Shown: positions 2,992 to 58,609 of the stretch, piece by piece | Layout of the letters: each line of letters opens with the position of its first letter | How positions within the stretch are numbered: position 1 is the stretch's first letter | From: Flintibacter faecis | GTDB taxonomy: Bacteria > Bacillota > Clostridia > Oscillospirales > Oscillospiraceae | Direction of reading: 5' to 3' | Assembly: GCF_014287875.1 (NCBI RefSeq) | Contig: NZ_JACOPN010000001.1 | Span: 372,001-436,000, forward strand | DNA: 64,000 nucleotides | The notes under the pieces: model-generated | The model's input: the letters and a program-made list of their open reading frames with translations, nothing else | What the model was told of the DNA's origin: nothing | The model's database searches: none | Position numbers and translations under genes: made by a program

Positions 2992-3044
2992 TTGACATGT
3001 TGGTTAGTTTATGCTAACCTATGCTTGGTTAGAGAAAGCTAACT
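2992..3044 (+). promoter_or_regulatory. Promoter with two tandem TTAG-N6-CTAA operators
   Basis: -35 TTGACA (2992-2997), 17-bp spacer, extended -10 TGC-TAACCT (3015-3020), start at about 3027. A perfect palindrome GGTTAG-TTTATG-CTAACC (3002-3019) covers the spacer and -10; a second, GGTTAG-AGAAAG-CTAAC (3027-3043), begins at the start point, 25 bp on. TTAG-N6-CTAA matches the core of DtxR/IdeR-type metal-dependent repressor boxes (inference). Occupancy would block the promoter. Confidence 0.65.
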
Positions 3045-3183
3045 CCCCCCTCCTCACACCTCCCTGCTTTCTTCCTACCCCTTTTATTCCAGATTTCTCT
3101 GACCACCAGAAAGTCTTTCGGGACAGGCATCCCCGACAGACGGGCCGCTGACCGTGCGCATACACGCGGTCAGCGGTTTTTTT
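3027..3183 (+). ncRNA. Putative metal-regulated small RNA with C-rich anti-SD region
   Basis: About 157 nt between a strong promoter and a strong terminator, without an ATG or any start codon with a ribosome site. The 5' end can form a small hairpin from GTTAG/CTAAC. It is followed by an unpaired pyrimidine tract (3042-3084) containing CCCCCCTCC, ACCTCCC and TTCCTACCCC, which are complementary to GGAGG-type ribosome sites. A hairpin TCGGG/CCCGA (3118-3136) and the terminator stem complete it. The architecture recalls FsrA of Bacillus and RsaE-like C-rich RNAs that base-pair with ribosome sites; homology is not claimed. Expression and targets are inference. Confidence 0.55.
3145..3183 (+). terminator. 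Terminator of the putative small RNA
   Basis: Perfect 10-bp stem CCGCTGACCG / CGGTCAGCGG (3145-3154 with 3167-3176) followed by seven T (3177-3183). There is no gene upstream on this strand within reach other than the small RNA unit. Confidence 0.9.
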
Positions 3184-28263: not shown

Positions 28264-28518
28264 TCACTTTTCAACCTTATATCCGCAGTGCGGGCATTCC
28301 GGCGGGGCGAAAAGCCGGTCCAGCCGCAGCAGGCCGCCACATTCCGGGCAGCGCCAGTATTTCCAGGTCCCGATGAGGAATGCAAGGCAGCCGGCCAGGA
28401 CGACGAGCCCTGCCATGATCTTTGCGCCCCGATTTTCAATCGCTGACCCAATCACTGTTACGAAGAGACAGGCGGCCCACAGCAGCGCGGCCCATTTTCT
28501 CCATTTGTTTGGTGTCAT
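28264..28518 (-). CDS. Small membrane protein with C-terminal zinc ribbon
   Basis: 84 residues: two membrane segments (about 7-24 and 33-50) and a C-terminal zinc ribbon CPECGG...CPHCGY. Unknown function; small zinc-ribbon membrane proteins of this kind are often unannotated. GGAGGTATGCTTTT precedes the ATG. Lies 29 bp after the kinase-like gene and may be co-transcribed with it. Confidence 0.75.
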   Translation of the reverse strand: MTPNKWRKWAALLWAACLFVTVIGSAIENRGAKIMAGLVVLAGCLAFLIGTWKYWRCPECGGLLRLDRLFAPPECPHCGYKVEK

Positions 28519-48866: not shown

Positions 48867-49361
48867 ATGCTCAACAAAATTTTCATCATGGGCCGCCTGA
48901 CCCGTGACCCCGAGCTTCGCCGCACCCAGACCGGCACGCCTGTGGCGTCCTTCTCCCTGGCCGTTGACCGGGACTTCAAGGACCGGAACACCGGCGAGCG
49001 CACCACCGATTTTATCGACTGCGTGGCCTGGCGGCAGACCGGGGAATTCGTCAGCCGTTACTTCACGAAGGGCCGCATGGCCATCGTGGAGGGCCGTCTT
49101 CAGATCCGCGATTGGACGGATAAAGAGGGCAACAAGCGCCGCTCTGCCGAGGTGGTGGCTGACCAGGTCTATTTCGGCGATTCCAAGCGGGACAGCGAGA
49201 ACGGCGGTTACTCCGCCGGCTACAGCCAGCAGCAGGGCGGCTATGCCCCCAGCAATTCCGGCTACTCCGCGCCCGCCGCACCCTCCGGCTATGGGGCCCC
49301 TCCCGCGGACGGGGACCAGTTTGCCGAGCTTTCTGATGACGACGGCGAGCTGCCGTTTTGA
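48867..49361 (+). CDS. ssb: Single-stranded DNA-binding protein
   Basis: 164 residues: OB fold (about 1-108; NKIFIMGRLTRDPELRRTQTG, FIDCVAWRQTGEFVSRYFTKGRMAIVEGRLQ), a Gly/Tyr/Gln/Ala-rich linker and the acidic partner-binding tail ending DDDGELPF. GGGAGGAGCACT precedes the ATG. Lies between rpsF and rpsR as usual. Confidence 0.98.
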   Translation: MLNKIFIMGRLTRDPELRRTQTGTPVASFSLAVDRDFKDRNTGERTTDFIDCVAWRQTGEFVSRYFTKGRMAIVEGRLQIRDWTDKEGNKRRSAEVVADQVYFGDSKRDSENGGYSAGYSQQQGGYAPSNSGYSAPAAPSGYGAPPADGDQFAELSDDDGELPF

Positions 49362-50282: not shown

Positions 50283-50314
50283 TGAGAAGATAAAGAGAAA
50301 GCAGGGAGCTAAGT

Positions 50315-52057
50315 ATGAAACAACTGATGTTGGGCAACGCCGCCGTTGCCCGTGGGCTGTATGAGGCGGGATGCTGCGTGATCTCCAGCTATCCCGGCAC
50401 CCCCAGCACCGAGATCACCGAGGAGGCCGTGAAGTTCCCCGAAATCTACTGCGAGTGGGCCCCCAACGAGAAGGTGGCCATGGAGGTGGCCTTTGGTGCC
50501 AGCCTGGCGGGAAAGCGGTCCTTCTGCGGCATGAAGCATGTGGGCCTGAACGTGGCCGCCGATCCCCTGTTCACCATGTCCTACACCGGCGTGAACGGCG
50601 GCGTGGTCATCGGCGTGGCTGACGACGCGGGGATGCACTCCTCTCAGAACGAGCAGGACTCCCGCCACCACGCCATCGCCGCCAAGGTCCCCATGCTGGA
50701 GCCCTCTGACTCCGCCGAGGCCCTGGAGTTTGCCAAGCTGGCCTACGACCTGTCTGAGCAGTTCGACACCCCGGTGCTGCTGAAGATGTGTACCCGGGTG
50801 TCCCACTCCCAGTCCCTGGTGGAGCTGGGAGTGCGGGAAGAGCGGCCCTGCATCCCCTATGAGAAGAACCTCGCCAAATATGTCATGATGCCGGGCAACG
50901 CCATCCGCCGCCACCCCTTTGTGGAGGAGCGCACCCGCAAGCTGCAGGAGTGGGCGGAGACCGCCCCCATCAACCGGGTGGAGATGGGCGGCACCAAGAT
51001 GGGCATCATCACCTCCTCCACCTCCTATCAGTATGTGAAGGAGGTCTTTGGCGACTCCGTCTCCGTGCTGAAGCTGGGCATGGCCAACCCCCTGCCCGTC
51101 AAGCTCCTCCGGGACTTCGCCGCAAAGGTGGATCAACTGGTGGTGGTGGAGGAGCTGGACCCCATCATTGAGAACCACTGCCGTGCCCTGGGGCTGGAGG
51201 TGTCCGGCAAGGACGTGCTGCCCATGGAGGGCGAGTTCTCCCAGAACCTGATCGCCGCCAGACTGGGCGGGCAGGTACATACCGGCGCAGGCCTGGACGA
51301 GGTCATCCCCAACCGTCCCCCCGTCATGTGCGCCGGCTGTCCCCACCGGGGCCTGTTCTACACCCTGAGCAAGAATCAGTGTACCGTTCTGGGCGACATC
51401 GGCTGCTATACCCTGGGCGCAGTGGCCCCCCTGGCCGCCATGGATATGACCCTGTGCATGGGCGCTTCCATTTCCGCCATCCACGGCTTTAACAAGGCCC
51501 TGGGGGAGCAGAGCCAGGGCAAGACGGTGGCCGTCATCGGCGACTCCACCTTTATGCACTCCGGCATGACGGGCCTTGCCAACATCGCCTATAACCAGTC
51601 CAACTCCACCGTCATCATCCTGGACAACTCCATCACCGGCATGACCGGCCACCAGCAGAACCCCACCACCGGCTATAACATCAAGGGCGACCCCGCCGGG
51701 AAGATCGACCTGGAGGCCCTGTGCCGGGCCATGGGCTTCAACCGGGTTCGGGTGGTGGACCCCTATGACCTGAAGGCCTGCGACCAGGCCGTGAAGGAGG
51801 AGCTCTCCGCCGACGAGCCCTCGGTCATCATCTCCCGCCGCCCCTGCGCCCTGCTGAAATATGTCAAGCACAGCGCCCCCCTGGCGGTGGACACGGACAA
51901 GTGCGTGGGCTGCAAGAACTGCATGAAGATCGGCTGTCCCGCCATCTCCATTCGACAGGGCAAGGCCCACGTGGACAACACCCTGTGTGTGGGCTGCGGC
52001 GTGTGTGAGCAGCTGTGCGGCGTGAAAGCCTTCCACAGCACCAAAAAGGAGGGCTGA
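50315..52057 (+). CDS. iorA: Indolepyruvate:ferredoxin oxidoreductase, alpha subunit
   Basis: 580 residues. Pyrimidine-binding domain at the N-terminus (YPGTPSTEITEEA), transketolase-like middle, TPP-binding C-terminal domain (GDSTFMHSGMTGLANIAYN, NSITGMTGHQQNP) and two [4Fe-4S] motifs at the end (CVGCKNCMKIGCP; CVGCGVCEQLC). Oxidatively decarboxylates aryl-pyruvates from Trp, Tyr and Phe to aryl-acetyl-CoA with reduction of ferredoxin. AGGGAG precedes the ATG; 3 bp gap to iorB. Confidence 0.96.
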   Translation: MKQLMLGNAAVARGLYEAGCCVISSYPGTPSTEITEEAVKFPEIYCEWAPNEKVAMEVAFGASLAGKRSFCGMKHVGLNVAADPLFTMSYTGVNGGVVIGVADDAGMHSSQNEQDSRHHAIAAKVPMLEPSDSAEALEFAKLAYDLSEQFDTPVLLKMCTRVSHSQSLVELGVREERPCIPYEKNLAKYVMMPGNAIRRHPFVEERTRKLQEWAETAPINRVEMGGTKMGIITSSTSYQYVKEVFGDSVSVLKLGMANPLPVKLLRDFAAKVDQLVVVEELDPIIENHCRALGLEVSGKDVLPMEGEFSQNLIAARLGGQVHTGAGLDEVIPNRPPVMCAGCPHRGLFYTLSKNQCTVLGDIGCYTLGAVAPLAAMDMTLCMGASISAIHGFNKALGEQSQGKTVAVIGDSTFMHSGMTGLANIAYNQSNSTVIILDNSITGMTGHQQNPTTGYNIKGDPAGKIDLEALCRAMGFNRVRVVDPYDLKACDQAVKEELSADEPSVIISRRPCALLKYVKHSAPLAVDTDKCVGCKNCMKIGCPAISIRQGKAHVDNTLCVGCGVCEQLCGVKAFHSTKKEG

Positions 52058-52060
52058 GCA

Positions 52061-52633
52061 ATGGAAACCAAGAATATTATGATCGTTGGCGTGGGCGGCC
52101 AGGGCAGCCTGCTGGCCAGCAAGCTGCTGGGCCACCTGCTGATGGAGCAGGGCTATGACGTGAAGGTGTCCGAGGTACACGGCATGTCCCAGCGGGGCGG
52201 CAGCGTGGTCACCTATGTGCGCTATGGCGACAAGGTGGCCTCCCCCATCATCGACAAGGGCGAGGCGGACTTTATCGTCTCCTTCGAGCTGCTGGAGGCC
52301 GCCCGCTGGCTGGGCTTCCTCAAGCCCGACGGGCAGATCGTCACCTCCACCCAGCAGATCGACCCCATGCCCGTCATCACCGGCGCGGCGGCATACCCCC
52401 AGGACCTGGTGGCCAAGATGAAGGCCACCGGGGCCAAGGTGGACGCCCTGGACTGTCTGGCCCTGGCCGAGCAGGCCGGTTCCGCCAAGGCGGTGAACAT
52501 CGTGCTGATGGGCCGCCTGTCCCACTATTTCGACCTGCCCGAGGAGGCCTGGCAGAAGTCTTTGGAGGCCATGGTCCCCGCCAAATTCCTGGAGCTGAAC
52601 AAGAAGGCCTTCCAGCTGGGCAAGAACGCCTGA
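52061..52633 (+). CDS. iorB: Indolepyruvate:ferredoxin oxidoreductase, beta subunit
   Basis: 190 residues of the gamma-type POR domain: GVGGQGSLLASKLLGHLL and VSEVHGMSQRGGSVVTYVRYG are the family signatures. Forms the active complex with IorA. Its stop overlaps the crcB start (TGATG). Confidence 0.96.
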   Translation: METKNIMIVGVGGQGSLLASKLLGHLLMEQGYDVKVSEVHGMSQRGGSVVTYVRYGDKVASPIIDKGEADFIVSFELLEAARWLGFLKPDGQIVTSTQQIDPMPVITGAAAYPQDLVAKMKATGAKVDALDCLALAEQAGSAKAVNIVLMGRLSHYFDLPEEAWQKSLEAMVPAKFLELNKKAFQLGKNA

Positions 52634-56865: not shown

Positions 56866-57516
56866 TTAAAATCCGTGTTTCGACAGAAATTCCATGGTCA
56901 ATTTGCTCTCTTTGGTTTTGAGCTCCGGGGTGGGACGAAGCAGCCGCTCCACATATTTGCCAATGATATCGCTCTCCAGATTCACCCGGTCGCCTACCCG
57001 GCGCCGGCCCAGCAGGGTGACGGCGGCGGTGTGGGGGATGACGGAGACGGCGAACCGGTCCGGCTCCACCCGGGCCACCGTCAGGCTGATGCCGTCGATG
57101 GCGATGGAGCCCTTCTCCACCACATAGCGCAGCACCTGCTCCGGTGCCGTTATGGTAAACCAAATGGCGTTGTCGTCCTGTTCGATGGCGGTGATGGTGC
57201 CCACGCCGTCCACATGCCCGGCCACGATGTGCCCGCCGAAGCGGCCGTCTGCCGCCATGGCCCGCTCCAGATTCACCGGGCTGCCCGGGCCCAGCCCCGC
57301 CAGAGAGGAGCGGTCCAGGGTCTCGTGCATCACGTCGGCGGTGAAGCCGTGACCGGTGAGGCTGGTGGCTGTCAGGCACACCCCGTTTACCGCCACGCTG
57401 TCGCCGATCTTCAAATCGCTTAAAATTGCCTCCGCCCGGATGGCAAGTATGGCGGAGACCCGGCCCCGGGTCACCCGCTCTACGGTGCCCAGTTCCTCAA
57501 TGATGCCGGTAAACAT
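56866..57516 (-). CDS. ribE: Riboflavin synthase, alpha subunit
   Basis: 216 residues in two lumazine-binding repeats (MFTGIIEELGTV..., GHIVAGHVDGVGTI...); SVAVNGVCLTATS and IAIDGISLTVARV mark the two halves. Its ATG lies 20 bases inside the 3' end of ribD, so translation is coupled. Confidence 0.97.
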   Translation of the reverse strand: MFTGIIEELGTVERVTRGRVSAILAIRAEAILSDLKIGDSVAVNGVCLTATSLTGHGFTADVMHETLDRSSLAGLGPGSPVNLERAMAADGRFGGHIVAGHVDGVGTITAIEQDDNAIWFTITAPEQVLRYVVEKGSIAIDGISLTVARVEPDRFAVSVIPHTAAVTLLGRRRVGDRVNLESDIIGKYVERLLRPTPELKTKESKLTMEFLSKHGF

Positions 57517-58609
57517 CCCGGTCCACCTCGCTCTCCAGCAAAAAGTCCGCCCCGATCTGGGTGATCACAGTGTTTTTCAAAGGGAAGGCCGCCGCAGGGG
57601 CGTCCACGCCCCGGCCCTCCACCGGGGTCTTGGCCGTCCGCCCGCCAAAGAGCTTGGGGGCCACATAGGCCATCACGGCATCCACCACCCCCTGGTCCAG
57701 AGCCGACCAGTTCAGGGTGCCTCCCCCCTCCAGCAGGACGGAGTCGATCTCCTGCTTCCCCAGGCAGTCCATCAGGGCGTTTAAGTCTACATGTCCGTCC
57801 CGCTCCGGCAGCACCAGCATTCGGCAGCCCGCCCGCTCATAGGGGGCCAGGCGCTCCGGGTCGGCGCAGCAGGTGGCGATCCAGGTGGGGGTCTGCCCGG
57901 CGGTGGTCACCACCTGGGCGGTGAGGGGGGTGCGCAGATGGGTGTCACAGACCACCCGGATGGGGTCACGCCCTCCCGGCAGACGGCAGGTGAGCCTGGG
58001 GTCGTCGGCGATCACCGTGCCCACCCCGGCCATGATCGCCCGGTGGCGGTGGCGCAGGGTCTGGACGTGCTGCCGGGCCTCCTCTCCGGTGACCCATTGG
58101 GAGGCTCCGGTGTGGGCGGCGATCTTCCCGTCCATCGTCATGGCGTACTTCATCACCACATAGGGCCGCCCGGTGCTGATATACTTGAGAAAGGCCCGGT
58201 TGAGCCGGTCGCACTGGGCCTGCAGCACATGCTCCTCCACCTGAACGCCGTGTTCCCGCAGCAGGCGGTTCCCCTTCCCGGCCACCAGGGGGTTGGGATC
58301 GGGGGACCCCACCACCACCCGGGCGATGCCCGCCTTTAAGATGGCTTCGGTGCAGGGGGGCTGGCGGCCCTGGTGGCAGCAGGGCTCCAGCGTGACGTAC
58401 AGCGTGGCTCCCGCCGGGTCGGCGGTACAGTTTTTCAGTGCGGCACGCTCAGCGTGGAGGTCGCCGCATCGGGCGTGATATCCCTGACCGATGATCTGAT
58501 CGTCCTTTACGATGACAGCCCCCACCATGGGGTTTGGGCTGGTCCATCCGGCCCCCTGTTCCGCCAGCTTTAGGGCCAGGGCCATATATCGCTTATCTGT
58601 TTCCGTCAT
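57497..58609 (-). CDS. ribD: Bifunctional riboflavin deaminase/reductase
   Basis: 370 residues: cytidine-deaminase-like domain with zinc motif HAERAALKN and PCCHQGRQPPCTEAI, and a RibD_C reductase domain from about 145 (YVVMKYAMTMDGKIA...SQWVTGEEARQHVQ). GGGAGCGCAGCAAGC precedes the ATG at 58609. The frame is open much farther upstream but that part is the FMN riboswitch. Confidence 0.97.
   Translation of the reverse strand: MTETDKRYMALALKLAEQGAGWTSPNPMVGAVIVKDDQIIGQGYHARCGDLHAERAALKNCTADPAGATLYVTLEPCCHQGRQPPCTEAILKAGIARVVVGSPDPNPLVAGKGNRLLREHGVQVEEHVLQAQCDRLNRAFLKYISTGRPYVVMKYAMTMDGKIAAHTGASQWVTGEEARQHVQTLRHRHRAIMAGVGTVIADDPRLTCRLPGGRDPIRVVCDTHLRTPLTAQVVTTAGQTPTWIATCCADPERLAPYERAGCRMLVLPERDGHVDLNALMDCLGKQEIDSVLLEGGGTLNWSALDQGVVDAVMAYVAPKLFGGRTAKTPVEGRGVDAPAAAFPLKNTVITQIGADFLLESEVDRDVYRHH

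Follow-up and report, generated by a model that had tools for sequence, protein, structure and literature searches.

A putative iron-sparing small RNA with an anti-Shine-Dalgarno tract in Flintibacter faecis and related Oscillospiraceae

The locus and its RNA unit

The 64-kb stretch of Flintibacter faecis DNA analysed here, which we call the window, carries near its beginning a compact unit formed by a promoter, two palindromic boxes, a C-rich tract, a hairpin and an intrinsic terminator, with a LysR gene downstream, and farther along it carries the iorAB genes (Table 1). The -35 element TTGACA (2992-2997) and the TGC directly 5' of the -10 element bear out the near-consensus promoter proposed in the initial annotation, but the -10 element TAACCT (3015-3020) matches the consensus at three of six bases, and the promoter is missing from the list of our promoter scan because at least four of six were required there. 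The two palindromes lie 25 bp apart, as described beforehand, and are both exact matches to the box pattern, and with up to two mismatches the pattern is found at these two places only in the whole window; the loose count is no evidence in itself, because shuffled sequences average 7.5. The GGTTAG half of box 2 doubles as the 5' arm of the predicted RNA helix P1.

Table 1. Positions in the window of the RNA unit, its promoter and boxes, and the candidate target
Feature	Position	Strand	Basis or remark
Promoter, TTGACA + 17-nt spacer + TGC + TAACCT	2992..3020	+	Read from sequence
Box 1, GGTTAGTTTATGCTAACC	3002..3019	.	Perfect palindrome over the -10 element; probable DtxR-family iron operator
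Box 2, GGTTAGAGAAAGCTAAC	3027..3043	.	Palindrome; putative second operator, in some copies only
Putative small RNA gene, about 157 nt	3027..3183	+	Covariance model, folds, pair counts; start inferred from promoter geometry
P1, 5' arm	3027..3037	+	Predicted folds and alignment
Anti-Shine-Dalgarno tract, CCTCCTCACACCTCCCTGCTTTCTTCC	3049..3075	+	Conserved across copies
Seed inside the tract, CTCCCTGCTTTCTT	3060-3073	+	Complementarity to candidate target
P1, 3' arm, ending in CTCTGACC (3097-3104)	3094..3104	+	Predicted folds
P2 hairpin, loop CAGGCATC at 3124-3131	3113..3141	+	Folds, fitted alignment
P3, intrinsic terminator and T run	3142..3183	+	Terminator call and alignments
Candidate target site, GAGAAAGCAGGGAG	50295..50308	+	iorA ribosome-binding region; ends 6 nt before ATG
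iorA, indolepyruvate ferredoxin oxidoreductase alpha subunit (4Fe-4S), candidate target	50315..52057	+	TIGR03336, Fer4 domains
iorB, beta subunit, next gene after iorA	52061..52633	+	NF005325, 273 bits, cut-off 230

The C-rich tracts, the hairpin and the terminator noted initially are all present in the window sequence. The accompanying statement that about 157 nt run without a start codon is right for ATG and TTG, neither of which occurs in the unit, but not for GTG, found once at 3154 in the terminator stem. The RNA read from 3027 is more stable than all of 200 dinucleotide shuffles (z -5.0). In the predicted fold its 5' end, GGUUAGAG, would pair with CUCUGACC about 65 nt downstream and so enclose the tract (P1), and the P2 loop reads CAGGCAUC at the RNA level. 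CCUCCCU is open in the predicted ensembles of most copies (median 0.99), and the eight bases after it have a median of 0.96; in the window copy these eight bases, which form the second half of the seed, are predicted to be mostly paired (mean unpaired 0.30), because CUUUCUU is an alternative partner of the 5' arm.

In Rfam release 15 the unit has no match at the gathering score and, below that threshold, nothing better than E 0.77. The only gathering-score match in the window is an FMN riboswitch (RF00050, 58783-58897, minus strand, 114.5 bits), upstream of frames that resemble a riboflavin operon (57497-58609 and on). An inverted repeat with 18-nt arms (2832-2956), like a small mobile repeat, immediately precedes the RNA gene; it was not seen in that form in the upstream stretches of relatives that were examined.

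Conservation, covariation and the box beside iron genes

With the adjacent LysR gene as anchor, 52 loci were retrieved, and reading the 330 nt upstream of this gene in 48 of them revealed the element in four, which belong to one MAG, Flavonifractor sp. An100 and two strains of Pseudoflavonifractor phocaeensis; when CTCTGACCACCAGA was searched as an exact string across the 52 loci, the same four came up. The first covariance model was built from these four and the window. The covariance search for the promoter, tract and terminator unit, suggested by the initial annotation, identified a family with one full-length copy per genome in 21 of the 64 genomes of one genus-level group (two further matches, weak or antisense, were dropped from this count), giving 22 copies with the window. 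The tracts and box 1, whose absence from close relatives had been named as an argument against the idea, are kept in all 22. In samples of 400 family genomes, matches were obtained in 12 genomes with model R1 and in 19 with model R2, the strong ones being the same six with either model and all within the 21; the weak family-level loci that were examined (L074-L080) are without the box. A pattern search for box plus CCTCCCT recovered the 21 copies already found, together with a few additional, ambiguous sites.

All copies, the window included, present TTGACA followed by GTTAG-N6-CTAA at the -10 element. Of the two operators proposed initially, box 1 is present in 22/22 copies, but box 2 is complete in just four (window, L073, L093 and L096). 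CCTCCCT is likewise found in every copy, ACCTCCCT in 20 and CTTTCTTCC in 17 (at the RNA level CCUCCCU, ACCUCCCU and CUUUCUUCC, respectively), and the base after CCUCCCU is G in 17 copies and A in five.

P2 and P3 covary as RNA helices. Double changes affect 10 of 33 pairs in an unfitted alignment of five sequences, in P2 and P3, and 11 of 21 pairs in the unfitted alignment of 22 sequences, all in P3, where P1 has no double change and P2 is not recovered. In the model-fitted alignment, which leans towards the structure and comprises 23 rows, one of them an antisense partial match of L068, 92.4% of the cells pair and 27 of 33 pairs carry double changes, a result equalled by none of 500 shuffles. 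P1 appears to rest mainly on conserved sequence and folding, because its double changes are absent from the unfitted alignment and come from one or two rows of the fitted one. The loops of P2 and P3, CAGGCATC and GCATACACG, are strongly conserved.

These observations bear on two other ways of reading the unit. Frames of 48 aa exist in two close relatives (L072 and L086) and one of 15 aa in L073, but that the unit encodes a small peptide has next to no probability, since the other 19 of the 22 copies hold no frame of at least 12 aa that starts and ends inside the RNA, and P2 and P3 covary as RNA; no small peptide frame, the feature singled out beforehand as speaking against an RNA, is conserved across the 22 copies. 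A 5' leader or attenuator acting in cis on the LysR gene would suit the window and four relatives, where this gene is co-oriented with the unit and lies 60-85 nt beyond it. We hold it to be highly improbable, as the 17 other copies have different or unplaced neighbours (a membrane protein, which we take to be AI-2E-like, follows in eight, and the gene is different or unplaced in the other nine), the terminator closes the unit, and the complementary target sites described below would be left unexplained. The unit's own promoter in 22/22 copies, the terminator helix in the alignments and the differing neighbours fit a stand-alone transcription unit.

The box itself is shared with iron genes. GGTTAG-N6-CTAACC occurs at 48 sites in 22 of the 64 genomes, five of them at RNA genes, against five sites in the 64 genomes for the same pattern read backwards. 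Its sites adjoin feoA/feoB, DtxR-family genes, a flavodoxin, and ZIP-like and ABC transporters, other sites lying within called frames or beside genes of no assigned family; Pfam confirmed FeoB_N, Fe_dep_repress/Fe_dep_repr_C, Flavodoxin_1 and Zip on one or few examples each, and the rest were assigned by resemblance. A weight matrix derived from the 22 boxes, with the centre ignored and a cut-off of 14 bits, was run on 1.2 Mb of one genome (G048; G numbers denote genomes and L numbers loci), where it found seven sites of at least 14 bits, all intergenic: once each at the RNA gene, a feoB-like gene and a YgbA_NO gene (Pfam), twice at an ABC-type transporter (assigned by resemblance) and, as a tandem pair, beside a frame of no assigned family. 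The tandem boxes lie upstream of that frame, at 1009756 and 1009782 (L118). The YgbA_NO gene (1063329-1063706, L121) has a box upstream together with an AGGGAGG ribosome site, and could be under both repressor and RNA.

Because it adjoins feoAB, flavodoxin and DtxR-family genes elsewhere, the box is most likely an iron-repressor operator. Its initial assignment to the DtxR/IdeR type holds for the half sites, as GGTTAG and CTAACC agree by eye with the actinobacterial DtxR/IdeR consensus TTAGGTTAGSCTAACCTAA (PMC8464063, PMC10317159), but not for the spacing, which is 6 bp versus 1 in that consensus, and because of this departure the DtxR link rests on gene context. A DtxR-family gene is present in all 21 genomes with the RNA (the window's own genome lies outside this set), yet also in 62 of the 64 overall, so this co-occurrence was set aside as uninformative. 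In G048 one DtxR-family protein was found, with its match at 1138817-1138984.

The DtxR family includes manganese sensors, the box also stands at ZIP-like and ABC transporter genes, and its spacing departs from the IdeR/DtxR consensus; a manganese-responsive family member controlling an RNA that spares or saves manganese would fit these points, and we judge it very unlikely. Iron is favoured over manganese because the box adjoins iron genes, feoAB and flavodoxin genes among them, and the candidate targets are iron-sulfur genes.

At three further loci (L424 in G427, L433 in G441 and L442 in G008) a box is followed by other C-rich stretches with CCTCCCT, and in G441 a DtxR-like gene comes after them; these elements may be leaders in the same regulon or else unrelated RNAs.

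Candidate target sites in iron-sulfur genes

The tract, CCUCCCU(G/A)CUUUCUUCC, is complementary to ribosome sites of iron-sulfur genes. In the window this concerns iorA (712 bits against TIGR03336, cut-off 651), whose site forms 14 contiguous pairs with the seed, 13 of them Watson-Crick, when the longest pairing is at most 11 in the other 61 window genes and at most 12 in 1028 G048 genes; none of 3000 shuffled tracts reached 14 bp with the window iorA. By duplex energy, iorA is fourth to fifth of the 62 window genes. Paired with the RNA of its own genome, iorA reaches 14 bp in the window, G001 and G002, 15 in G048 and 16 in G437, and just 9 bp in G445, the RNA of which lacks one U. Two other window genes have AGGGAGG-type ribosome sites, an 84-aa frame (28264-28518, minus strand) and an ssb-like gene (48867-49361, plus strand), neither an Fe-S protein by appearance.

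In P. phocaeensis An858 (L001, G001) the RNA reads CCCUACUUUCUUCC and iorA reads GAAGAAAGTAGGGA. This iorA site makes 14 Watson-Crick pairs with its own RNA and eight with the window RNA, and the window iorA site makes six pairs with the G001 RNA; neither iorA was picked by complementarity. RNA and iorA have changed together in this strain, the single compensatory event seen. The natural pairs are CUGC/GCAGGG and CUAC/GUAGGG, and the CUAC form of the RNA is present in four other genomes (G004, G245, G419 and G451). The G001 site still forms 14 pairs with a CUGC RNA if one G-U is allowed, so in that direction the joint change shows fit, not need.

Across the 64 genomes, GRRGAAAGCAGGG has 55 matches versus 31 for the backward control, and 14 of the 55 are the RNA gene itself. 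Inspection of the other 41 showed that 13 sit 5-8 nt before a start codon, and 12 of these 13 belong to iorA (G002, G048, G437, G445 and G428), nifJ, encoding PFOR (G407, G403 and G412), or siroheme reductase (G009, G409, G435 and G452), the remaining one being a metallophosphoesterase in G422. The G048 iorA start was set from a separate gene reading, the automatic call having missed it, and one more match just inside a start in G445 (L481) was not counted. Protein assignments were made with NCBIfam for IOR_alpha, pyruv_ox_red (fragment), rnfC, AsrA and rubrerythrin and with Pfam for NIR_SIR, the other iorA and nifJ copies being assigned by 89-97% identity to profiled ones or by resemblance. 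Nine of the 13 matches lie in genomes carrying the RNA; nifJ in G403 and G412 and iorA in G428 have GRRGAAAGCAGGG at the start and no detected RNA, and such sites mean missed RNAs, replaced RNAs or another reason for conservation.

Siroheme-reductase loci, retrieved through protein similarity, gave the first hint of these targets. In a first subfamily the start site reads AGGGAGGT in 5/5. Pairing with the own RNA in a second subfamily extends over 15 bp in G435, 10 in G450, and 6 in both G437 and G451, and, with one G-U each, over 13 bp in G009 and G409 and 14 in G452. No site was counted in a third group, with the domain inside longer frames (G001, G002, G003, G245, G419 and G445).

Eight of 1028 called genes of G048 have AGGGAGGT as their ribosome site, and three of the eight (AsrA, RnfC and siroheme reductase) carry a C2C2C3C motif, versus 15 of the 1028 (Fisher p 1.4e-4, for an idea that arose from the same data as the test). 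Rubrerythrin and an Rrf2-family regulator of G048 have AGGGAGG ribosome sites. The AGGGAGGT and AGGGAGG sites of this genome pair over about 9 bp with the RNA, and 70 of the 1028 genes reach at least 9, so that a 9-bp site, as in rnfC, asrA and one group of siroheme reductases, is not of unusual length; the longest runs among the 1028 genes are not in Fe-S genes. The rnfC site was rejected as a discriminator, since AGGGAGG precedes rnfC in 20/20 further genomes with the RNA and also in 37 of 39 without detected RNA (40 loci, one without a hit; three of the 39, at 33-39% identity and two of them with the motif, resemble paralogs).

Duplex-energy ranking of 862-1067 called G048 genes was dominated by G-rich starts and was rejected as a target finder; with 16 motif genes among 862, Fe-S motifs were not significantly enriched by energy in G048 (p 0.16). 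Start regions are matched more closely by the real tracts than by any of 60 shuffled ones. The complement pattern GRRRGYRGGGRGGT gave about 170 matches in the 64 genomes, RNA genes included, versus about 241 for the backward control, with 0/20 chosen sites at a start codon; 20 further places are mostly inside coding genes, and three (G429, G449 and G431) resemble C-rich untranslated elements. IlvD was dropped as a target: its median percentile was 0.51 in 24 rows, the start being wrongly chosen in some of them.

C-rich tracts containing ACCTCCCTACTT(T/C) adjoin flavodoxin genes in three genomes that lack the RNA gene (L493 in G429, L492 in G449 and L494 in G431). The G429 tract is placed as a leader between a box and the flavodoxin start, and the other two lie on the 3' side of the gene. 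We regard these three tracts as a lead only.

The RNA might also be real and iron-regulated and act otherwise, as an RNA sponge, by protein binding through the P2 and P3 loops or as a ribosome decoy, the Fe-S matches being conserved ribosome sites. Those loops are strongly conserved, genomes without detected RNA carry the rnfC, nifJ and iorA sites as well, and the general edge of the tract over shuffles is expected of any anti-Shine-Dalgarno tract, but the length and gene class of the matches, as well as the joint RNA/iorA change in G001, count against such a role, which in our estimate is unlikely.

Proposed role and relation to known systems

In our view, positions 3027-3183 of the window quite probably encode a trans-acting iron-sparing small RNA that blocks the translation of Fe-S mRNAs. 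What the sequences establish is the conserved unit, a structure signal, a box common to iron genes and complementary sites, and the conserved unit, the box at iron genes and the Fe-S candidate targets support the initial proposal of a metal-sparing small RNA of Oscillospiraceae. From them we infer transcription, a metal response, repressor binding and a translational block. A DtxR-family repressor would occupy the box over the -10 element and block transcription as long as iron is available; under iron scarcity it would leave the box, and the RNA would be made. Helix P1 would close a loop presenting the CU-rich tract, P2 and the terminator completing the RNA, and the tract would pair with the messages of iron-sulfur oxidoreductases at their ribosome-binding sites and stop their translation, the targets being iorA, PFOR and siroheme sulfite reductase, with rnfC and asrA as possible further ones.

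A more speculative extension starts from the 16S tail, ACCUCCUUUCU. The tract resembles this tail, and the letters in which it differs would favour AGGGAGGU and GAAAGCAGGG sites, kept on the iron-sulfur genes of this lineage. The tract may then read a Shine-Dalgarno code. Given the C-rich tracts beside flavodoxin genes in relatives that lack the RNA gene, the iron-sparing RNA may have shifted between a free small RNA and an mRNA within one iron regulon while the ribosome sites of its targets stayed fixed. We put forward this whole reading tentatively and consider it doubtful.

If the proposed role is true, it would bring iron sparing under a DtxR-type box to anaerobic Oscillospiraceae of the gut, which depend for their energy metabolism on Fe-S oxidoreductases such as PFOR, IorAB and Rnf, and it would offer a reason for some ribosome sites of the lineage keeping AGGGAGG. 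The proposal lends itself to direct testing, as it specifies the RNA, the seed and individual target sites and includes one compensatory pair that arose naturally.

RNA-based iron sparing is already known from Fur-controlled small RNAs and from the IdeR-linked MrsI, and among the matches listed in open-licence PMC text there was no iron small RNA from these bacteria. RyhB of enterobacteria is iron-sparing, Fur-controlled and Hfq-dependent; the window RNA would share its iron-sparing logic, and we know of no sequence relation between the two. Staphylococcal IsrR (PMC9410917) is an iron-repressed small RNA under Fur with two promoter boxes, single-stranded C-rich regions, a terminator, Fe-S targets and Shine-Dalgarno pairing. 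The window RNA would share these traits except for Fur, its box being of the DtxR type by context, and it is found in one Oscillospiraceae group. FsrA of Bacillus subtilis (PMC12871923) is an iron-sparing small RNA that has C-rich regions and inhibits the mRNAs of iron enzymes; compared by description, it has 84 nt, is under Fur and is helped by FbpABC, whereas the window unit has about 157 nt. Mycobacterial MrsI (PMC11188477) has a site of the DtxR-family iron regulator IdeR near its start and lowers iron-containing proteins in low iron, but it is an actinobacterial RNA of about 100 nt whose seed of 6-8 nt lies within an apical loop of 7 nt, in contrast to the long predicted CU-rich loop and the sites of up to 16 bp of the family described here. 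By analogy, the logic of the window RNA would be like that of FsrA and IsrR, and its operator type nearer to that of MrsI.
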